Below are positions 6,666 to 57,826 of a stretch of 64,000 nucleotides of DNA, in pieces (the stretch's first letter is position 1; each line of letters begins with the position of its first letter). The notes under the pieces were generated by a model. That model saw only the letters and a list, made by a program, of their open reading frames with translations. It did not search any database and had not been told where the DNA came from. The stretch covers positions 744,001 through 808,000 of the forward strand of contig OY978098.1 in assembly GCA_963854735.1 (NCBI GenBank), given 5' to 3'. The position numbers and the translations under genes were made by a program. This DNA comes from Marvania coccoides. Its lineage: Eukaryota > Chlorophyta > Trebouxiophyceae > Chlorellales > Chlorellaceae.

Positions 6666-7391
6666 ATGGCGAGAACAGTTGAAATCAAAAGTTTTTTTCA
6701 AGGAGTCGCTGCTGTCCTCACACTGCTTCACTATGCTATATCTTGCAGGCTGACGATCCTGAACTCGAAGCCATCCGGCAGCGCCGCATGGCTGAACTCA
6801 TGGGCCAGCAGGGGGGAAAGGCAAGCTGCCGATAACTACCGACGCTGCACTGTTTTATTCCTTTCATTGTTTTGGAGACGGGGCTTGACATTTATTCTCC
6901 TGCTACATTTTATAGGGTGGTCCAATGACCCCTGAGGAGCAGCAGCAGCAAGAGGAGCAGAAGCAGGCGCAAGAGGAGCAACGGCGGTCAATGCTGATGG
7001 CGTTGCTGCTGCCAGAGGCCAGAGACAGACGTGAGCGAGGCATCATTATTTCAATGCTGAAAAACTGTCGACTGCTTCAGACGGTATCACTACGAAATCA
7101 AAACCCGTCTACATTTCAATTTCAATACACATTGTCATCTCTCCTTATTTTCTTTATCGTGTATTTTACTAATTAAATTATTTTGCAGTGGCCCGCATTG
7201 CGCTGGTGAAGCCTGACAAGGCCCGAGCCATCGAGGACATGCTCATAGGGGCGGCCAGGCGGGGCGCTATCGCAGAAAAGGTCAGCGAGGAGCGGCTGAT
7301 CGATCTGCTGGAGCAGGTGAACGAGCGGACGGCGGCAAAAACGAAAGTTACGATCCAACGGCGAAGGGCGTTTGACGACGATGACTTTTAA
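6666..7391 (+). CDS. PDCD5: PDCD5 / TFAR19 family DNA-binding protein
   Basis: Small helical protein conserved from archaea to plants, linked in animals to apoptosis and chaperonin binding. Proposed exons: 6666..6668, 6749..6820, 6916..7030, 7189..7391 (130 residues). The C-terminal exon ARIALVKPDKARAIEDML, then KVSEERLIDLLEQV and VTIQRRRAFDDDDF, matches the family along its length, acidic tail included. Introns 1 and 2 both read as GC-AG (ATG|GCGAGA and AAAG|GCAAGC). With intron 1, exon 1 is only the ATG and the protein starts MADDPELEAIRQRR, like human MADEELEAL. An alternative GT donor at 6678 would give MARTADDPELEA. Intron 3 has a TACTAAT branch-like site 16-25 nt before its acceptor. 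An AATAAA lies just past the stop. Confidence 0.88.
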
Positions 7392-44767: not shown

Positions 44768-47511
44768 TCACCGAGCGGTGTTGGGATTGAACATCCGCAG
44801 CACGCCCCGTGCGGGCTGTGCCAATGCTGCCCCACGGTTGCTGCCTTTGCCCGACCCTCCCAGCGCCTGGCCGTTCTCCTTCCCTCCTGCCGTCGCCACC
44901 ACCGAACTATTCCCTTGCAGCTGCTTATTCTGGGCCATCATGTTAATCAGCGCCTCGGTGGCCTCGATCTTGCCATGCGCCACGTCCACCTCGCGGCGGC
45001 TCGCCGCCAGCGCTGCGTGCAGGGCAGCCACCTCGGCCGCCCGCTGCTCATCGCTCCGCCTCGCTTTCTTCACTTCAGACGAAAGCTCGTCCACTGCGCT
45101 CGCCAGCACATCCCGCTCCCCCATCAACCCCTCCACCTGCACTCCCCGCTGCTGCAGGTCCTCCCTCGCCTCGTCAAGCTCCTTGCGGAGGCCAATCAGC
45201 TCTGAGCGACGGCCCTCATGGCCCTGTATCGCCTCCTGCAGCTCGCACACCGCCCCCATAAGCGCTGTGCGCTCCTCTCCCAGCCGCTGCACCTCCGTCC
45301 CTGTCGCCGCCGCGGCGTCTTTCGTCTCCACCAGCGCCTTGCGCAGCTTGGCCAGCTCTGTTTGCGCCAGAGAAAATTCGGAGCTGCGCTGCTCCGCGTC
45401 TGCCAGCAGCGCAGAGATCTCCTGCCCCAGGCTCTCCTCCCCAGCCACCCGCTCGCTCTCCACCTCGCGCACCATGTCTTTGAGCCCCTCGATCTGCTCC
45501 TTCAGGTCGTCGATGCGCCATGCCTTAGCCTCCAGCTCCGACGCGCCCTCCTCCACAGCCGCCTCGAGTTCAGCCACGCGGGCGCTCAGCTGCGCGGTGC
45601 CTTCCTGCAGCTGCTCGATGCGGGCATCCTTGATCGCGACGGCGCTGCGCAGCCGCGACAGCTCGGTGGTGGCCGTGGCACGTGCTGCCTCCGCGACAGA
45701 CGCCCGTTCCTCGGCGTCCACCAGCCGGCGCTCCACCTCATCCAGAGCAGCCCTGTCCGAGTCACCCACTGCCTGAAATAGAAAGCAAAGAAAAATGAAA
45801 ATACAGAGTTGAAATACACATTGAAAATGAACGGGGGTTTCTTTTAGTATCGCTGCTCACCTGGGTCGCTTGCAGCTGGGACTCCAGCTGAGATACCTTG
45901 GCACGCAGTCTGCTAGCGTCAGTGACGGGATCCTGCTGCAGGCTGTCCCGCAGCACCGCCAGTTCCGCTGCCATCGCCTTTGAGGCCGCGTCCTTCTTGG
46001 AGGCCGACTTGCGCAGCGCCAGGACCTCCGATTCTAGAGTGCGCAGCGTCTTGAAGTTCACCTCGATGTCGGTGGTGCGCTGCGCAGCCAACTGCGCCAG
46101 CTGGGTCTTGGCAGCGTCAGCCACCGCCCGGGCGCTCTCAGCCTCCGCGTGCGCCTCCTTGACGCAGTCTTTCAGGTCGGAGATCTGCGCCAGCAGGTCC
46201 TCAATGCGCCACTCGTTGGCCGCTGTCTGCGCTGCCTCTGCCTCAGCCTCCGCTACCTGGGCGGCATCCCGGAGGTCTGCAATCTGCACCAGCAAGTCAT
46301 CGATGCGCCATTCCTTGGCCTCCACGGCGAACTTGGTCTCCTCCGTCGCCTCCTCCAGCTCCGCCACGCGCTTCTCCAGCGCTGCGCTACGAGCCACCGC
46401 AGCCTCCATGCTGTGCAGCTTGTTCTCGGCCGTGGACAGCTGGTTTTCGAGGTCCAGCGCCACCGAGTCGTAGTGTCGTGCCTCTTTCTGCGCCGCCGCG
46501 AGCTGATTCTGCAGGGCCGCCACCTTTTTCTCCAGCTGCTCTGCCCGAATGTCGCCAGCTTTCACAGCGGCACGGCCGTGCTCCACCTGCCGTCGCAGAG
46601 TTTCTGCCTCTGCAGCAGCCTCGCTCGCGGCCGTGCGGCTCTGTTTCAGCTGGCAGCGCAGCCCGTCGGCCTCTGCGGCGGCGCGGCCCGCCGCCTCTTT
46701 CGTCTCCTTCACAGCGCCGTTTCCCTGCTGCAGGGCCGACTGGGCGGCCTCTGCCGCCTGATCCGCTGCGGCAAACGCCCGTTTCACCTGCTCCTGCGCC
46801 TCCACCTGCGCGAGCGCCAGCTTCTTCTCACGGTGCGCCACCAACGCTTCCAGTCGCAGCTGCTCCTCGCGCATCCTCTCCCGCTCCCCCTCGACGGCAG
46901 TCTCGCGAGCGGCGTGCTCCATACGCAGCGACTCCAGCATCTCCCGCAGCTGGGCGGCCTCAGAGCGCGCGGAGTTGCGCTGGCAGCGCAGTGAGTCGTT
47001 CCGCTCAGTCAGTGCCTGGATCTTAGCATCCACGTTCTTGGCGTGGTCCTCCAGCGCTGCCACCTGGGTGGCTGTGGCCATGACGGTCTTGGAGGAGGCC
47101 AGTTCGGCCTTGACCCGCTCCAGCTCACCCTCTGTTTGCTCCAGCTGGCTGGCCAGGAGCGCCGCCCGAGCCACCAGCTTGCTGGGGCTCAGGTCAAGCA
47201 CGGGAGCCGCGCTGCCCGCAGTCTGAAGGGACACGTAACGGATTTGGGATTGCATGAGTGGGAGGGGGGGGGGGGGGGGGGGATGCTTGGCATGAACAAC
47301 GTGGACCGGAGATGCGGAGATGATTTATATAAAACGCAAAAATACTCACCTCAGCGGATCGTACGCAGTTGGGTTCGATGTTTTCATCGTTGGAAAGTTC
47401 TCCCAGCGATGGCTTGCGGCCCACTGGCTTGGAGTCGACGGCCGTTGCAGCGCGATCTGAACGGTTTCCCGGGGGTCGGGCAGCTTTGCGCCGCGATGAC
47501 TTGTTGCTCAT
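44768..47511 (-). CDS. Long coiled-coil protein with repeated WRIDDL motif
   Basis: 842 residues from exons 47511..47350, 47222..45861 and 45772..44768, all GT-AG and phase 0. The first 60 residues are basic and Ser/Pro-rich (SNKSSRRKAARPPGNRSDRA); the rest is nearly continuous heptad coiled coil of Ala/Glu/Gln/Arg. A unit recurs three times: EWRIDDLLVQIADLRD, EWRIEDLLAQISDLKD and AWRIDDLKEQIEGLKD, the first two about 35 residues apart. The C-terminus is Gly/Ser/Asn-rich and ends RMFNPNTAR. Such proteins are often cytoskeletal, centrosomal or flagellar; I cannot assign the family. Intron 1 contains a poly-G run (47264-47282). The proposed transposon ends only 92 bp upstream of its ATG, so its promoter may be affected. 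Confidence 0.75.
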
Positions 47512-47602
47512 CTTATATTCTTGAGTATTTATTGTACAATAAGTAAATGCGGCAATTTGCATTTGCTCTCTGAGTAGTAACTGAAAAGTAACGAAAAAGA
47601 AA

Positions 47603-47779
47603 CATCTGGGTTTTGCGCGGGGTACACTCCAGCGTAAAAGCTGGCAACAGTCGGAAAGCATGTGTGTATTCAACGTTTTTTCGTGTGGGTGTTGCCCGAC
47701 GTTGGGCTGAGTCGCGTTGGACAACGCAACCCAACATGTCAAATATTTTCCCGACGTCTCCCAACAGTGGCGTTGAATG
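47603..47779 (+). repeat. Left inverted terminal region of the candidate transposon
   Basis: Starts with CATCTGGGTTTTG and is rich in GTTGG/CCAAC words. Read in reverse, its features follow the order of the right end: CATTCAAC, GTTGG, CGAAAAAA, TGTTGCC, then CAAAACCCAGATG. Confidence 0.6.
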
Positions 47780-48316
47780 ATGCTGGCCAGCACAGCGTCA
47801 ATGGCTATGATTACACAGTGGCGTTGCATTTCACTCAATTTCAGCCTGTGTTTCTACAGTTTTCAACGCCAAGACCGCTCATCACATTTCCCGCTTCCTC
47901 TCTGTGCACCACAGCCACTCCAAGCGATGTCAATGACTTTAAAATGGAAGGCACACGCTGTGCTAATCTCTACGGGCCCTCATCTTCAGAAATTATTTGC
48001 AAGATGACAATTTGCACGAAAACCTACCTAATCTCTTAAACCAGAATGCTTGCGCATTGAACCAGCTTTCAAATTCAAATATATCATAATTAGCATTGAA
48101 TTAGCACGTCGAAGTGGCAGCGGACTACTCAGGGAGCGGCCTCCGCGATTTTCAATTAAATAAAAATGGGGTTGTTTCGACTGCTTCACTTCTCCCTCCA
48201 GTCATTTAAGTATAAAAAATTCATATTTCCTGTATTTCATCAATATGTGTTCTGACTGGCTCCCTTGAGGTGCACATTGACTACATTACATCTATCCCAA
48301 TGCTGAACCCCCCTCT
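47780..48316. other. 3' flank of the transposase gene inside the element
   Basis: About 540 bp, AT-rich, between the left inverted repeat and the transposase stop codon. No further gene seen. Confidence 0.4.
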
Positions 48317-51300
48317 TTAAGCAACGTAGGGGTTCAGAATGGAGACATTCTCCTTTGAAGGATGCGGCTGGATGTACACGGGCCGCAAAACCTCGGCCAC
48401 GTCCACTAGCTGCGTAAAATCCACGGTGTGATTGCCGGCGCCGCGTACGGTGCGACTCTGCCGCTCCACCTTCAGCTGCGGCATCCCCAGCAGCTTCAGC
48501 CTCCAGTCAGCGTCGGCATCTTCGGCGTACCACCGAACGAAGACGAGGCGCTTGGGTGCCCGGCCGAATTGCACCTCCACAAAGGCAATCACGTCAGCGT
48601 ACCATTCGACGGGGTCTTCTTGCGAAAATCCTGCCGCCCGCACGGCAATGGAGCTGCACATACGGCTGTCGAAGACCTTGCTGACGAGCTTGACGGCCTC
48701 TGGCGGGGCGCCGATGCGGCGGTAGTACGGGCAGCCTGCAGTGCCGTACACGAGGACGGAGGGCCTGGGCGCGCCGAGCCCGTTGTCTCTTGCCAGTTGC
48801 GCGGCGTCGTATGTCAGCTGCTGCAGCTCGGGAGCTGCCTTCAGGAGGGTTGCCGCCGTGTCGTTGGTGGTGCGCTCCCCCAGCGCCAATTCTTCCATCG
48901 ACACCTTCACCGACCGCTTGGGGAACTCCACCCTTCGGTACTGCAGAGCGCGCTTCTGCAAGCTGCTCCTCCCAGCCTTTTCCTCCGCGCTGGCGTCTAG
49001 AAGGCGGTAGATGGACGCAGAACGCGCAGCGTGGCTAGAAACCTGCGACGCCATCATCTCCGGTCGATTATTCGTGAAGTTGCCCGAGCGCTTCAGGTCT
49101 TTGTGGGAGCGCTCCTGGAAGCCGGTGTCGGTGTAGGCGGAGGAGGCTACCGTTTCGATGACCTCCTCAAATTTCCGCAGAGCAAAAAATTTGAGCAACT
49201 TCCAGCCAGCCCCGCCGCGGTGGAGGTGCTCAAGCACGGCGGATTGCAGGTCGATGCGGAGAGTGCGCAGCTGGTCAATGGTGGCCTTGGTGTGGATCTC
49301 ACGCTCAAGGACGGCATCCCATTTTAGCAGCGCTGCGGTGGGGAAAATGAGGGGAATCGATTTTTAGCAATGGTTAACAAGCAGCGTGGAGGACAAAGAC
49401 GGCGCATTTTTTTGTTATAATGAAAGGTTCGATTTCCAGGGTTTTAGTTTAGAAACCGACGCACCGGCAAGGCAGCGGATGAGCGGTTCAAAGCGCTCGT
49501 CCATGAGCAGCGCTGGGCCGATAATCAGCGTGATGGCGTGCTGCTCAGCGGTTATGGACGCTTGCTCCATCCCCGTGGTGGGAATGGGCAGATTGGGGTG
49601 CTTAGGGCACTTGGCCAAGTATTGGTTGACCTGCGCTTTGAAGAATAAACAAGTAAATTTCCAATTATATATATATTTGTTGAGTTGCAAATATTTTCTA
49701 TTTTTGTAGAAGGCAAAATATAAAGTGTGTTACTTACCCTCGTCAGAATGTTCTCGTCTCCGCTGACCAACGAGTTGAGAACACTCGCAGCCACAGTCTT
49801 GCCCTTTTTCGTTTGGTGCTCAGGAACGTTGGCCACCAAGTACAGCTCCACTCCTTTATAAACGGTGTGCAGGCGATCAGCCATCGCAAGCTGATAGCAG
49901 TCGGCGGCAAAAAAGCCTGCTAGTGCTGGGCGCCGCACCCGGGCCTTTTCCACCGGTAACGAACACGTCACGCCACCACGGCGGGCTGGGTCGAAAAAAA
50001 CCACGTCATGCAACAGCGAATATTTGCTCATTTCTTTTCTTGCCGCTGTCACCGCGGCATTGCTGCCCATCGTGCCCGCCGCCCGCATGTCGGCAGCCGC
50101 CGCCGCCACGTCGAAAACGCGCAGCATGTCCTCCTCTGTGCGGCGCGGGTACTCTCCCAAGGCGTCGTCCAGCCTGTGTTGTGGCACCAAGTATGTCACG
50201 TCGGGCATGGCGCACTTTGTCCCCGTGCCAACGAGGAGTCCACCGCCAAGCGCAGGAATGTCTCCCAAAATGGCGCAACAACCGGGGTATACCCAGGCAT
50301 CACACTCCCACTGGTCTTTCAGCGACAAACCCCTGAAAAGCAGGCGGTGGAAGGTGAATGGCTATTTTTTCAAGCTGTGAGAAGGAAACAAATGGCGCTT
50401 ACGTCAAAGTGTACGACTTCAGCTCTTCAAGGGCGAGCTCCAGCGTCTTTTGGGTGACCCAATGCTGCAAGGTCGCACAAAAGCTTGCAGAAATGCCGAG
50501 AGATGTGTGGTCGAGGACCGGGATGTCTGCAATTCTGGTGGTGCCTCGCCGCTTAAAAACTGAAGAGCGGTCCAGCCCCAATGCGATGAAGTTCACGGGC
50601 TTCACCCGCAGCGCTGCATGATTCATCTTTGTCTCGTCGAAGTAAAGTCCAAAGGGCTCCACCAGCACTTCCTCGCCTAAGTTTCTTTGGCTATGAATGG
50701 CCTGCATTTCAAAAAATTAGGAAAGCAGGGAAAATTATTAACAGTAGCCATCGCAACGTTAAGAAAAACTTACAATGAGGACCCTCAAATGCTCGCCAAG
50801 CTGGGGCCGCCCAAAGAGCTCCTCTCCCTTGTTGTTGATTGCGCCAAGGTCTGCCGCTGCAACTACACCCCCCTTGAAGGCATGTTCTTGCAGCACGTTT
50901 TTAATGTGCTTCACCACGCGGCAAGTGATTACCTTCCCGTTGACCTCGATGAGGACCACCTCTTTCCACGGCTGCCCCCACACCGCCGCTTCTACGCTCG
51001 CACGCCACTCGTCAAATGCGGGAACGTTTCGCCAGCGGGCTAGGTTGCGCGAGAAGAAAACATCAAGCAAGTCGTCCGCATGAGTCCTAGGGAGGTAGGG
51101 AATGCAAGAAAGCGCCACTCGCTCTTCGGCGGTGAGGTTTGGGCCGAGGCGGCCCAAGAGTCGCTCATGTGAATGGGCCTCCTCGTCATCGTCGTCGTCA
51201 TCACCACCAAGAGCCCATTGCGGGTTGATGCAGCGATCTAGGTCGGCCGCTTCAATGCCACCGTGGTTTGAAAAGCTCGCCGACTCCGAGCGGGGCGGCA

Positions 51301-51562
51301 AGCCCTCGCAAGACGGCGGACCACAATCGCCCAGATGGAACACCTCCGCAGGCTCTAATCCACCATCTCCATCGTCTGCAGCTCCCGCCGGAACGCCGTC
51401 GCTGCTCCATTCTGCAGGTGTAGCCCCGGCGCCGACGCTCGCCACCGACGAAATCAAGCGATTCCAGCACTCTCCTCGCATCCCCAAATGCACGTGGAGG
51501 TGTTGAAAACTACGCCCACATGCTGGACACTCCTGTTTGCGCCGCTTGGGCGCCCTGAACAT
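48317..51562 (-). CDS. KDZ/Plavaka-like transposase, apparently intact
   Basis: 954 residues from exons 51562..50774, 50701..50403, 50332..49738, 49630..49465 and 49332..48317; all GT-AG, all phases agree, no internal stop. Near the N-terminus is a C2H2 finger (CPACGRSF, then HLHVHLG) after a basic patch. The catalytic region follows Plavaka in order: FDETKMN (SDKTQL-like, proposed catalytic Asp), a CCAILGDIPALGGG block, a Cys/Pro segment ending YLVPQHRLDDALGEYPRRTE, and DRLHTVYKGVELYLV (DLLHQLYKGV-like). Next comes KCPKHPNLPIPTTGM, and KFEEVIETVASSAYTDTGFQ near the end. An in-frame ATG at 51637 would add 25 residues. It could be active or domesticated. Similarity is from memory of the superfamily. 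Confidence 0.75.
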
Positions 51563-51904
51563 TTTGATTTGATTTTCACAGATGTGGAACACACGATTTT
51601 GTGGGTATCGTTTCGGAGAGGCGCCGTATGTATTCAATAGAATTTAGAATGACTATTTTATATATTTTCATGCATTTTAAAGGAAACCAATAGTTTTTCG
51701 TGGGTTGGCCAAAATAATTTTGAAAATTAACAACCGTCCGACGGTTGCCCTTGCCGGTACCATGTCCTGCAGATGGTCCTCTTGGGCGTTGTACTTAATC
51801 TTTCTATTCATGCAAGTTTACAACCGAGCAACGCCGCGTTCTGTTCAGAAATAATTTGTTTTTCAAACAGTAGTTGTCGGCGTCCACACGCCACCCCGCC
51901 CACA
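51563..51904. promoter_or_regulatory. Divergent promoter region inside the candidate element
   Basis: 342 bp between the two start codons. It includes the palindrome at 51731-51747, so one binding event could affect both genes. Confidence 0.5.
51731..51747. promoter_or_regulatory. Perfect 17-bp palindrome, candidate protein-binding site
   Basis: CAACCGTCCGACGGTTG: two 8-bp inverted halves around one C. It lies between the two divergent genes. The outer CAAC/GTTG words recur in the element ends, which suggests a transposase or regulator site. Confidence 0.5.
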
Positions 51905-53992
51905 ATGCCTCCTAGGAAACCCCGGGGCAAGCCGTCTCTTGCCAATGCGATGGACACCAGCCCCCCGTCCGCCCGTCCCTCCAACCAGCGTTCTGCCAAC
52001 GGAGATGGCCAGGTATGCGAGCTTTATAGTTTGTATGCATTTGCTGAACCTCCCACCGCTTGATTGAAATTTGTACATCCAAATTTCAACCTCCCCGGGG
52101 ACCAGCAATCCCAAATATATTGTCGGGCTGGCTGTTTTTCTTAATTAAGCAAAAATTTAAACGGTGATCTTTCCTCTCCTTCCCTACTTCCGCCCCCGGG
52201 CCCGGATCGCTCAAGGCTACCACCAAGCGTGTCATTCCTCACTCGCCTGATGCTGCCACACTCAAGGCGCCCCGCCGTGGCGGTCCGCCCACCCTTGTTG
52301 AGGATCCCAAGTTTGATTACTACTCCAGCGAGGAGGTGCCCCTCCCCTACGAGTCTGACGAGTTCGAGGAGGACGACAACGACCGCGTGCCCGAGTTACA
52401 CCCTGCTAACTTCACCCCCGAGGAGAATCAGCTCATCGACGCCGAGCGCCTTGCTCGTCCCCAGCACGAGCAGCGGGCACCCGACGCCCCCATGGCTGCC
52501 AGATACCTAAGGTTCCAGGCAACGGAGGGCAGCCCTCCCGCTGCCGCTCAGGGCCGCCGCAGCCCAGCCGGGCGTGGCCCTCAGGCGCCCCTCTCTGCCT
52601 TGTCACCCCGCCTTGTCCGCTTTTCCGACGATCCGGCAGGCTCTCCCCACCACCCCGAGCTGCTACGCGCCAGCCAGCCCTCCTCCCGCAGCCCTCGTGC
52701 TGCTGCGCAAGAGCACACCGAGGTCGAGGCGGTTTTCTCTTCCATGATGGAGCGGGTCCTTCACCTCTTGGAGCGGCAAAGCACCGAGGTCGGGGCTCTT
52801 CCACGTAAGTTGACGTTGTTAGAATAAATTCATGGTTCTTTCTCTTGTTGAGAATATGTCACCGTCGGTGCCGATTTTTTATATATATTTCCCTCGCAGG
52901 CTTGCTGCGCCTGGTCCTTGACCGGTTCGACGATGTGTTGGAGGAGATAAAAAAGCGCAGCCCTGAGAACGGCAGCGCCCCCAACAGCCGCGACAGGGAG
53001 ATGGTAGATCTTTTTTCCTTCAGTATTTTATTGGTTATCGGTGTTAAAATTGTCTTTCTCCCCCTTTAATGCGGTTTATTACAATTTAATTAAACTCGGT
53101 TTTAATTTTAATATCCCCATGCCAATGTTATTTTGCAGACCAAGGAGGTGAAGGCGCACATCATGGCGCTCGAGCTCATCGCCGACCCCAACCTGGGGGG
53201 CTTCTTCCCCTCTGCCCCGTTTGTGCAGCTGGTGGTGGCCCTCTACCTGGGCTATACCGACATCAACAGCGCGCGCATCCACGCGCGTGACCAGATCAGT
53301 GGCCTCGTTAAACGGGTGTGATAAAAAATTAATTTGCCATTTTGCCATCAAATCTGAAATCAGCGCGCCATTAACCAAGCCCTTTCCCCTTGATTATTAT
53401 GTAGGTGGGGTTGATCTTCCGCGTCAACATCCGCGGTGAGGTCGCCCGCGAGGTGAAGCAGAACTGGGTGCGGCTGTTCTCAGGCTTCGCCATTGCTGGC
53501 CGGCTGCTGATCCACCCCAACGGCAACATCGACGCCACGGTATCGCGCATGGTTCTGGAGGGGCGCGCCTATAGCGCGCTGGGCAACGAGCCCTACGCCG
53601 ACCAGCGGTACCGTACCTCCGGTATTTTCCGCCCCGCCGGCACCTCCACTCAGGCGCTGATCGCACAGATCGACTTCCTTCCCGCCACCGTCATCGCATA
53701 CATCGAGCTCGTGGTATGGTAACGTGCTGTGCTCTTTCAAACATGTCGAAATCTTCTTGCTGGCGCTTATGCAGCCATACTTTTTCAGATTTCTTTCTAT
53801 AATCTTTTTCAAAAACTGTTTTGTATTGGCAACGTGCAGCTCGAGCGCCAGATGGAGGCGCGCGACACCTCCGGCATCCGGTCTGACATACACCCTGAGG
53901 ACTACCATGCCCGGGTGGCGGAGGTGCTGCAGCGCCGCAGCGCCTACGTGTTCCCACTGGTGTCCGGGCTCGATGCTCAGGCGGAAGCATGA
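51905..53992 (+). CDS. Unknown protein paired with the transposase
   Basis: 479 residues from exons 51905..52012, 52216..52804, 52900..53003, 53139..53315, 53405..53713 and 53840..53992; phases agree throughout. Intron 1 uses an AAG acceptor (CTCAAG|GCTACC). The first 200 residues are basic/Pro-rich then acidic (MPPRKPRGKPS; SDEFEEDDNDR). From about residue 200 the protein is ordered: a helical stretch (SMMERVLHLLERQS, LVLDRFDDVLEEIKKRS), then AHIMALELIADPNLGG, GYTDINSARIHARDQISGLV and VREVKQNWVRLFSG-like helices. The layout (disordered head, compact tail) would suit a DNA-binding or multimerising accessory factor, but I recognise no family. Its position inside the inverted repeats and divergence from the transposase suggest element cargo or a second mobility gene. 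Confidence 0.7.
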
Positions 53993-54119
53993 AGGTTATT
54001 GGGGCATAGAAAAAAAACACACACACACATTTTCTTATTACCATCGAACTCATTACTCAATACTAGCATGTCAAACTAAGGATTTATCCTTAGTGAACTT
54101 TAAGCTATTTGTAAAACGT

Positions 54120-54524
54120 TTGTCCTTTGTTCATCTTTTGATGATGATTTGATGATAGCATATTTGTTTTTATGGTGATGATAGCCTGACTGAGTGGATG
54201 ATGATTCTTGCTTTTCAGCACAAGCCTTTAAAGAAATTTGTGAAACATTTGTTTTCTGACCTTCAGCGTTGCTTTCTTGTCCTTCTTCGATTCAATGTTT
54301 TTCTTTTTTTTCTTCTCAACTTGATCCCTTGCAACATTGTCATCTGTTTAACTTTTCCTCTTTTCACCATTTTTCATATAGCTTTTTTTCTAGCATTACT
54401 TTTTTTCGTATTCTCAATCAACATAGCGTTCTGCATGCTCTCCCAAATCTGTATATTTTGCGTCCTTTGTTGGCACCTTTTGATGATGCGAATATGTTTG
54501 ATTGGATGATGTTCTTGCTTTTAG
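54120..54524 (+). repeat. Diverged direct repeat in the 3' region of the element
   Basis: GTCCTTTGTT, then CTTTTGATGATG, then GATGATG and TTCTTGCTTTT occur in the same order at about 54122-54214 and 54462-54522. This suggests an old local duplication. Confidence 0.5.
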
Positions 54525-54847
54525 CCCTTTTTTATTTTTATTATGAACGTTGCCGCTCCATGAGGTGGGTCCAGGGGGCCCACACCTAGTGCGTGCCTGC
54601 TCGTGTCTTTGATAATATGCCGATTGAAATATGTGTAATAAAAGAATCGTAGCGAATGGGGAAGAAGCTAGCGGCGGCAAATGCAGGTGGCCAAAAAATA
54701 TGTTCAGAATCCTTCACTTCTACCAAAATGCGGCACCGTTGAAAAACATGTGCTACGTGGAAGCGCAGATTTACGCTGAAAACTAGAGATGCTGAAAAAC
54801 ACAAGTGTTGATCTTCACACTCCAACACTTGGAATTATTTCCAACGA

Positions 54848-54971
54848 CATTCAACACTGGCGTTGGCAATCGCTGGGGATAACACTTGTGTTGGATTGCA
54901 TATGCGAAAAAAGCTCGTATTCAGCGTCAGTGTTGGCAACAGCTGGAACGCAGTTTTCCAAAACCCAGATG
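54848..54971 (-). repeat. Right inverted terminal region of the candidate transposon
   Basis: Ends with CAAAACCCAGATG, the exact reverse complement of the left tip. It contains CATTCAAC, GTTGGCAA, GCGAAAAAA and TGTTGGCAACAGCTGG, in the same order as the reversed left end. Confidence 0.6.
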
Positions 54972-55405
54972 AAAGAGAGGCATCAATTGGCGTTTTTTAA
55001 AGTTTTTTCATCAATTGGCACCTGATTCCATTGCGAAGTGATTGTATCAATATGGGTTGAGGGCAAGTGGGGCGACTTGGCCCCTTTTTCTAAACTTGAC
55101 CAGTTGTAATTCAAGGAAATGGATGTGTCTGTCGAGCTCTTCAGTCTTCAAAAACCCGGTCTGGTGTACGTGGCACATAACCGATCGAGCCTTGAAAAGC
55201 AGATCCGCCATTTCTTTTCAAGTCAGCCTACTCCACAACCTGCTCCACAACTAGCTCCACAAACATACTTTTTATTATTGTTGAATTCTGCCATTTAAAA
55301 CTCGTTTAAATGAATTATAAACAGTGCACATCCAGCAGAAATAGCTGCAGCTCTAAAAAAATAATATAAATCAAAGATATCAAATTGATACCTGCGAGCC
55401 GCAAA

Positions 55406-57826
55406 ATGAGGCACATTGCGTCGTATTCAAACTGTGGGGTGACCCCAAGCCTTGGCCGCCAGGCAAACACCACCGTGCCGCACTCTTCTTCTCTATGGAG
55501 GCGACGACAGCCCGTCGCCGGGCCTCTGCCTTCTCTCCTACTACGCTGGCCATCCTTGCCTGCGCGCATCTCCCTGCAAACACCTCACGCATCATCCAGC
55601 GCAGCAGCCCAACCCGCAGCGAGCGGCCCCCCTGAGAAAGCAGAAAATGCCACTTCTTCCTCTAACGCTCCTGCTGCTGCAACCAACGATAAAAACACGA
55701 AACCCACCCAAAAAATCGACCCCAAAAGGCTGGCGTGGGAGGTGTTGTGGCCTGACCGTGCGTTGGCAGCCCTCACCGCAGTAGCCCTGGTGGTTACTGT
55801 GGGATTAACGTTGGCCTTTCCACTGGCCATCGGCGACCTTTTCGACGTGGTTAGACAACACCTAGCAGCCGTGGGAGCGCCCCAACTGAGCCCCGCCGCC
55901 GCCGCGGAGCGGCTGGGTCTCATGCAGACGGTCACAGAGGTGCAACGGGCCGCCGCCGCTGCCCCGCCTGAGTTCTTTTCGGTGCTGCTGCGGTTGTGCG
56001 CCTGCCTGGTGCTGTCCGCTGCAGGCAACGCAGCGGTGGCGTACCTGGCTCCACTGCTGGGCGAGCGGTTTGCGGTGCGCATGCGCAAGCGGCTGATGGC
56101 GGAGACGCTGGCCAAGGACCAGGCTTTCTTCGATGGAGTGGGCAAAGGGGACCTCACGGCGCGGTTGACCCTGGATGTGGCGGTGGTGCAGGCCACCGTG
56201 GCTGACTTTCTGGGCGCCAGAGGCTTCAGGTCCATGCTGGAGGTCATCTGCAGCCTGGCTATCATGTGAGCGATTTCTATTTTTATCAACAGTAGCAGCA
56301 GTTGATTCCTTCCTTTCTCTTTTCCTCCCTCTTATTTGCCCTATTTACAGCTGCATGAATGGCAGTTCTAAATTCCTTCACGTTTCCTTGTCTAATAATA
56401 CCGTCTTTTTGCAATGCTCTGTAGTGCTGCCAAGAACCCTCTGTTGGCGGTGGTCTGCTTCGTGGTCACCCCCACGCTGTCCTTTGTGCTGCGCAAGATC
56501 GTGGTCAACGCCGCCAAGCTCACCTACGCGCGCCAGTCCGCCGCAGCCCGCGCCATGGAGTTTGCCACCGACCGCCTCACAGCGGTGCGCACGGTGCAGC
56601 TGTTCGCCGCCGAGGACCGCGAGGCCGCTGCGTACGGTGCCCTGACCCAAGAAGGCTTCGAAATGGCGCGCAAGTGCGCCACGTTCCAGGGCGTGGTGGA
56701 GGGCTGTGGGCGGTTGGCTGTCAACGTGGGGACGCTCAGTTTGTTGGGCCTGGGCGGCTCCCTGGTGCTGGCGGGACAGATTTCGCTGGGAGCGCTTCTG
56801 GCTGCCAACGTGTACAACCTGTTTCTGTCCGTGGGGCTGTCCAGCCTCGCAGGGTCGTTAGGAGAGCTTGGTAAAGCGGTGGGCGCCATGGAGCGCATCG
56901 CAGAGGTAGTGGGAGCGGGAGAACGCGACCCTGCTGCCGCCGCCAGCACCCCCTTCGACGGTTCTGACCTTTCGTTCACGGGACAGCACGAAAAAGAGGC
57001 GGCCGTCAGCAGCAGCGGCGACCGGGGCGTGGCGGTTGAGCTGGAAGACATATGGTTTAAGTACGCAGGGCGGGAGGACTGGGCGCTGAAAGGCCTGAGC
57101 CTGCGGATTGCACCAGGCTCCACTCTGGCGTTGGTGGGCGCCTCGGGGGCGGGAAAATCCACCATTGCAGCGCTGTTGCTGGGACTGTACACCCCGGAAC
57201 GAGGCACTGTGACCGTGGACGGCGTTGCGCTCACGCCAGTGACCATTCCTGCAGTGCGCAACATCACTGGGGTGGTGCTGCAGCAGCCGTCGCTGCTGTC
57301 TGGCAGCGTCGCGGATCAAATCCGGCTGGGGGCACCCGAAAGCAGCGACGCTGAAGTCGAGGCCGCCGCCGCGGCTGCGCACGCTGCAGGGTTTGTGCAA
57401 GCCCTGCCGGACGGGTATAACACCGAGCTGGGGGAGCGGGGGCACTCCTTGAGCGGCGGGCAGCAGCAACGGCTCGCGATTGCGCGGGCTTTGGTGCGCC
57501 GCCCGCGGCTGCTGCTGCTGGACGAGCCCACGGCTGCGCTGGACGTTGAGTCGGAGCGGGCGGTGGACGATGCGTTGCGGGTAGTTACTGGGTGTACCAC
57601 GGTGATTATAGCGCACCGGCTGAGCACGGTGAGACGGGCAGACGCCATAGCGGTGGTTGACGGTGGCAGAGTGGTGGAGCAGGGCTCGCATAAGGAGCTG
57701 ATGGCGGTGGGGGGGGGGCACTACCGCCGCATGGTGCTGACCTCTGAGCTGGTGGGGTCCAACAGCGCGTCAGACAGCGAAGAGGAGGTGGCGGTGGCAG
57801 AAATGGATAAAGTCGTCTTGAACTAA
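55406..57826 (+). CDS. ABCB-type half-transporter, predicted organellar
   Basis: 753 residues from exons 55406..56265 and 56425..57826 (GT-AG, phase 2). An Arg/Ser-rich, acid-poor N-terminus (MRHIASYSNCGVTPSLGRQA, then SLWRRRQPVAG) looks like an organelle presequence. A six-helix membrane domain follows (about 115-430). The nucleotide-binding domain has Walker A GASGAGKST (about 525), Q-loop VVLQQPSLLSGS, signature LSGGQQQRLAIARAL (about 628), Walker B LLLLDEPTAALD and H-loop IIAHRLST. The closest layout is ABCB10/TAP-like half-transporters, which dimerise and export peptides, heme intermediates or metabolites; the substrate here is unknown. The tail is acidic (SASDSEEEVAVAEMD). All ATPase motifs are intact. 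Confidence 0.9.

Follow-up and report, generated by a model that had tools for sequence, protein, structure and literature searches.

What is the segment at positions 47603-54971 of a 64,000-nucleotide stretch of the genome of the green alga Marvania coccoides (assembly GCA_963854735.1, contig OY978098.1, positions 744,001 to 808,000 of the forward strand; hereafter the window), and to which group of transposons, if any, does it belong? A preliminary description of the window had proposed a two-gene transposon of KDZ (Kyakuja-Dileera-Zisupton) or Plavaka type, bounded by diverged inverted ends and possibly domesticated. Here we report that the segment is a complete DNA transposon of 7369 bp. 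From its sequence and that of its relatives we read it as a real, recently mobile and probably recently active element. We consider it quite likely that it moves by cut and paste, that its transposase is distantly Plavaka-like within the EnSpm/CACTA-Transib group (CMCT, for EnSpm/CACTA, Mirage, Chapaev and Transib) and that its second gene is TNPA-like. The locus provides, within a compact algal genome, an element that is young and apparently autonomous; as its ends are defined and both near-identical copies and natural deletion derivatives exist, its activity is directly testable.

The limits of the element are set by a 13-bp terminal inverted repeat (TIR), CATCTGGGTTTTG, which lies on the plus strand at 47603-47615 and has its inverted partner on the minus strand at 54959-54971. 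Both positions agree with the first description. These are the sole two matches in the window, even when one mismatch is allowed, a count equalled in one of 100 shuffles. The genome searched comprises 22.46 Mb in 15 contigs and includes the window; it holds 11 exact copies of the 13-mer and none of the reversed control sequence. Its gene content suggests a green-line alga: 21 places match the light-harvesting profile, one of the proteins concerned resembles chlorophyll a-b binding and LHCII proteins among solved structures, and the profile for phycobilisome linkers has no match. Besides the pair in the window, inverted pairs are found with a spacing of about 7.4 kb at two places and of 416 bp at one. 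Copies with the same ends elsewhere in the genome thus bear out a transposon at the coordinates originally proposed.

We refer to the window element and its copies as family A, and to a second, related family in the same genome as family B. Family A has four full-length copies: the window copy, C4:871994-879380 (7387 bp), C13:48276-55665 (7390 bp) and a copy on contig C4 starting at 1068853 (7390 bp), in which the last G of the right end is absent. Any two of them differ by 1-7 substitutions across 7368-7389 aligned bases (99.90-99.99% identity); with gaps counted, identity to the window copy is 99.64-99.73% for the remaining three. Both genes are open in all four copies, and their length differences, of 3 bp and 15 bp, are in frame. 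The 416-bp pair delimits a derivative (C2:2390192-2390607) that has kept 85 bp from the start of the element and 187 bp from its end, the latter at 97.9% identity, and the two 13-mer matches that remain of the 11 are solo ends on C3 and C13.

Comparison of the flanks between copies revealed 3-bp target-site duplications (TSDs): aaa around the window copy (47600-47602 on the left, 54972-54974 on the right), and gga, aac and gac around others, to which family B and a derivative on C11 add att and gta. Taking families A and B and the C11 derivative together, six of the eight two-ended copies carry such a duplication, or five of seven if the C11 copy is excluded, since its gta is read on the assumption that a single base has changed in each of the two terminal sequences. 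At a probability of 1/64 each, at least six 3-bp repeats among eight would arise by chance at about 4e-10. Three of the four full family A copies have a TSD, and their sites are unrelated. Several copies, common ends, TSDs and unrelated sites, by which we recognise a mobile DNA transposon, are therefore all present.

Is this mobility a property of one family only? A protein search of the genome found relatives on C2 and C4. These are two elements of 6249 bp, whose ends are CATCTCAGTTTTG and which show not a single difference within the 4788 bp compared. Family B has the same divergent two-gene layout as family A. Its transposase (982 aa) is 41% identical to that of family A over the alignment; introns 3 and 4 of the gene are of the GC-AG type, and both are required for an open frame. 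The second gene, of 405 aa, is transcribed opposite to the transposase gene, and its product is homologous to its family A counterpart (24% identity over 301 aa, E 2e-20). Exact family B ends number eight in the genome, of which those at C1:263334, C2:2249205 and C3:759527 were left out of the copy comparison. Older remains comprise an internally deleted copy of about 1.7 kb at C11:47932-49630, made of pieces of 95.4 and 97.0% identity with changed terminal bases and the apparent TSD gta, and a right end on C1 at 96.8%. Hence the layout predates either family, and both families have moved recently.

These data bear on the suggestion that the gene pair was domesticated, or is maintained by the host within an old element. 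Frames that stay open through five and six exons would fit such a history, but recent transposition explains them as well. Other evidence points the other way: the four full copies of family A are nearly identical, occupy unrelated sites and in three cases carry TSDs, and the two family B copies match throughout the sequence compared. We regard domestication as unlikely, and a host-maintained pair in an old element as extremely improbable.

Other traces of family A are scattered in the genome. The solo ends are right ends without an exact partner, one at C13:830279-830353 (75 bp, 98.7%) and one on C3 (L014 1069-1125; 57 columns, 84%), and are either remnants or further short derivatives. At C1:1695146-1697154 lies a truncated relative, consisting of the right part only in pieces 70-97% identical, and family A therefore has an older layer too. 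A wider search for right-type ends (the 13-mer with up to two mismatches, plus AAC) returned 21 places against four for the reversed control; 14 of the 21 had two mismatches.

Do the inverted ends extend beyond the 13-mer? The preliminary description had the neighbouring 120-180 bp of the two ends aligning, if imperfectly, when one of them is inverted. We aligned positions 47550-47950 to the reverse complement of 54600-55030 under strict and loose scoring and compared the scores with those of 500 shuffles. Under strict scoring, the best local inverted alignment was the 13-mer alone, and nine of 500 shuffles scored as high; under loose scoring the alignment did not rise above the shuffles, 65 of which reached the observed score. 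Long inverted arms were accordingly rejected. The direct orientation of the ends outscored the inverted one slightly under both scorings (reached by 4 and 25 of 500 shuffles, strict and loose respectively). Inward of the 13-mer, the ends hold short motifs in both orientations, which are CAACAC-type in family A and AGCGC in family B. In the window copy, CAACGC/CCAACA-type motifs are modestly enriched in the left subterminal region (47616-47852) and CAACAC/GTGTTG-type motifs, again modestly, in the right one (54722-54958). In family B, AGCGC occurs on both strands 12 times in the first 300 bp, 11 times in the last 320 bp and 26 times in the interior.

What do the two genes encode? Gene models were built on splice signals and on comparison with family B rather than on transcripts, and they agree with the first description of a transposase-like gene without internal stop and a divergent second gene, with five to six exons per gene. 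The transposase gene, on the minus strand, has five exons between 51562 and 48317 and encodes 954 aa. Exon 1 (50774-51562, with the ATG at 51562) includes an N-terminal CxxC..H..C stretch that is also seen in family B. Exons 2 (50403-50701) and 3 (49738-50332) carry the candidate catalytic residues D285 and D387, respectively; exon 4 (49465-49630) differs in length from the other three copies by 3 bp in frame at 49547; and exon 5 (48317-49332, including the stop) carries candidate E690. The second gene runs divergently on the plus strand, with six exons between 51905 and 53992 that encode 479 aa. Its first exon (51905-52012) begins with the ATG at 51905, and the first intron ends in an atypical acceptor, CTCAAG, ahead of exon 2 (52216-52804). 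Exon 3 (52900-53003) is followed by two exons conserved in family B, exon 4 (53139-53315) and exon 5 (53405-53713); near 53614 the length of exon 5 departs by 15 bp, in frame, from that in the remaining three copies. Exon 6 (53840-53992) includes the stop. Both the order of the candidate triad and its spacing are conserved between the families: family B has D298, D400 and E709, so that D-102-D is found in both and is followed by D-303/309-E.

Is the transposase that of a KDZ element? The host genome does contain KDZ transposase matches, and the available part of one survey (PMC12730594) describes two Kyakuja families with CA..TG ends like those seen here. The KDZ profile PF18758, however, finds three loci at 82.6, 82.6 and 75.4 bits, all of them outside our elements, and gave no match to either spliced transposase, including the 954-residue protein of the window, at E up to 10, a range in which the HMMER filters drop most matches above about 0.1. 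The TSD differs as well, being 3 bp against 7 bp in Kyakuja and 8 bp in Dileera and Zisupton, according to the same portion of that survey. KDZ membership was rejected on these two grounds, a KDZ element being very improbable, and this half of the KDZ/Plavaka label is hereby corrected. The three KDZ loci, at C7:1130581-1131288, C8:405790-406497 and C1:1129967-1130479, score above the cut-off; those on C7 and C8, which are equal in score and in open-frame length, may be recent copies.

The Plavaka half of the label holds weakly. Kojima 2025 (PMC12730594, in the part available) finds Plavaka without similarity to KDZ and groups it with EnSpm/CACTA, Mirage, Chapaev and Transib. There, CMCT elements are characterised by mostly CA..TG ends, TSDs of 2-5 bp and C(2)C/H(3-4)H motifs between the second D and the last E; PlavakaB has CATCA..TGATG ends with a 2-3-bp TSD, and PlavakaA TGT..ACA ends with a TSD of 2 bp. 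Among the Pfam families, Plavaka (PF18759) was the best for both spliced transposases, at 17.2 bits and E 0.0032 for family A and 18.2 bits and E 0.0016 for family B. Over the catalytic stretch, which begins near the first D and reaches to a conserved H, the scores were 21.9 bits (E 1.2e-4) and 22.4 bits (E 8.5e-5); two reversed 450-aa stretches gave no Plavaka match and one unrelated match at E 0.12. The ends agree with CMCT in having CA..TG termini and a TSD within 2-5 bp. They agree with fungal PlavakaB in the 3-bp TSD, whereas the termini are CATCT..AGATG against CATCA..TGATG and have only CATC in common. Excerpts of two reports place related elements outside fungi, where the record of Plavaka in the literature searched is thin: a potentially active EnSpm-Plavaka in the green alga Auxenochlorella (PMC12633428) and a Plavaka transposase mentioned in Amoebidium (PMC11244446). 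To these the present locus adds a divergent algal case.

A number of results weigh against our explanation as a whole. All transposase scores lie below the curated PF18759 cut-off of 26.3 bits, and the catalytic stretch was trimmed after the first Plavaka match was known. When the genome was scanned with PF18759 in six frames and one exon at a time, nothing exceeded the cut-off and these elements gave no match. In neither family is there a CxxC or Hx3-4H motif between the second D and the E of the candidate triad. The triad was drawn from two sequences only, and AlphaFold2, run on exon 5 as a single sequence, returned a model at pLDDT 38 that was not used and in which the RNase-H fold was not obtained. 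The subterminal motifs are modestly enriched, with the highest 6-, 7- and 8-mer counts equalled by 7, 11 and 18 of 200 shuffles in family A and by 3, 18 and 65 of 200 in family B. Two of the eight two-ended copies have no TSD, namely the C2 copy of family B and the copy at C4:1068853, whose right end is damaged. The left 400-bp flank of the window copy is unique in the assembly, so that no empty site is visible from that side, and mobility is read from the assembled sequence, in which no excision was seen either.

Several further searches qualify these points. The PF18759 scan of the genome, whose one match elsewhere (15.8 bits) is at noise level, shows that single exons of the element give no match; likewise, Pfam found no transposase family in the unspliced open pieces, and Plavaka appeared only with the spliced proteins. 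Nothing convincing was found by Pfam in the N- and C-terminal transposase stretches or in the second genes, the best match being a TRAF6 zinc finger at E 0.02 in the first 56 residues of the family A transposase. Transposase_21 (PF02992) had no match in the genome, a search that was also silent in every control genome and so shows little. Against about 5.8 billion proteins, the transposase, the alignment of the A and B transposases and the second-gene alignment yielded no candidate at E<=1 (0 of 7987, 7987 and 7992 scored, respectively). The transposase alignment gave 26 pattern matches and no relative in IMG/VR, and no match at E<=5 in a sequence search of the PDB. This absence is a weak sign of rarity, as the sets may hold few eukaryotic proteins.

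Could the two families then represent a separate, undescribed lineage of CMCT type, beside Plavaka and EnSpm, in which the zinc CxxC/HxxxH site has been lost or replaced and a second gene is present? The sub-threshold Plavaka scores in both families would fit such a placement, as would termini of CATCTNNG instead of CATCA and a second gene for which no relative was found outside this genome. The sole CxxC of each transposase starts at residue 12 or 14, and no CxxC/Hx3-4H follows past residue 30 in either. On the other side, both families come from one genome, divergence alone could account for the low scores, and the placement was judged from profile scores, motifs and termini rather than from a tree. 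This alternative, which overlaps with our explanation and differs from it in placement alone, seems to us somewhat doubtful. A more far-reaching version would have families A and B found a separate algal lineage of the RAG1/Transib/EnSpm type, with a transposase that functions without the CxxC/HxxxH zinc site common to the other members and with an obligate partner protein from a new family, perhaps now in charge of DNA-end recognition; we consider it rather unlikely. If the zinc motif is truly absent, the element could help to show what the EnSpm/Transib/RAG1 transposase core can do without, and in what way a second protein encoded by the element might make up for the loss. Since the motif is absent in both families, we do not class the element as an ordinary member of Plavaka or CMCT; our best reading is that of a divergent variant that would work like a CACTA element.

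The comparison with plant CACTA elements of the En/Spm type supplies the likeliest role for the second gene. The accessible text of PMC2613891 describes elements with 13-bp ends and a 3-bp TSD that encode a transposase and a TNPA-like protein, the latter binding subterminal repeats that vary between families, and deletion derivatives that are moved in trans. Our elements resemble them in their CA-starting 13-bp ends, 3-bp TSD, transposase and second protein, family-specific subterminal short repeats and internally deleted derivatives. They differ in having two divergent genes, not transcripts of one region, and CATCT rather than CACTA ends. A literature search on subterminal repeats of green-algal CACTA elements found nothing useful. 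By analogy with TNPA, the second protein, for which we found no relative outside this genome, is probably an end-binding partner of the transposase. It might instead be a passenger, such as an anti-silencing factor. Accessory TET/JBP genes are reported in Plavaka and KDZ elements in the portion of Kojima 2025 (PMC12730594) at our disposal, and for neither family did Pfam recognise a DNA-binding domain in the second protein. Neither protein, however, matches a Pfam enzyme family, and the gene, although fast-evolving, has been kept in both families beside family-specific subterminal motifs, as would be expected of a TNPA-like partner. A passenger role is thus possible but, in our view, unlikely.

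How, then, might the CACTA-like variant that we favour transpose? The minus-strand gene would encode a DDE transposase, with D285, D387 and E690 as its candidate triad, which would cleave at the CATCT ends and integrate the element at a 3-bp stagger; this part of the model draws on the distant family resemblance and on what families A and B conserve. The plus-strand product would be an accessory DNA-binding protein that recognises the family-specific subterminal motifs, as TNPA of maize En/Spm does, and helps to assemble or regulate the transposition complex, a role suggested by the TNPA analogy and by the retention of the gene in both families. The 416-bp and ~1.7-kb derivatives would probably be mobilised in trans by full copies.

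The window copy is flanked by open frames that both point away from the element. The one on the minus strand (47194-47853) has no Pfam match, and its first ATG outside the element, located by eye, would be at 47511; a run of 19 G residues lies beside this frame at 47264-47282. The plus-strand frame on the other side (55370-56269) matches the ABC-transporter membrane domain PF00664 at E 8e-10.

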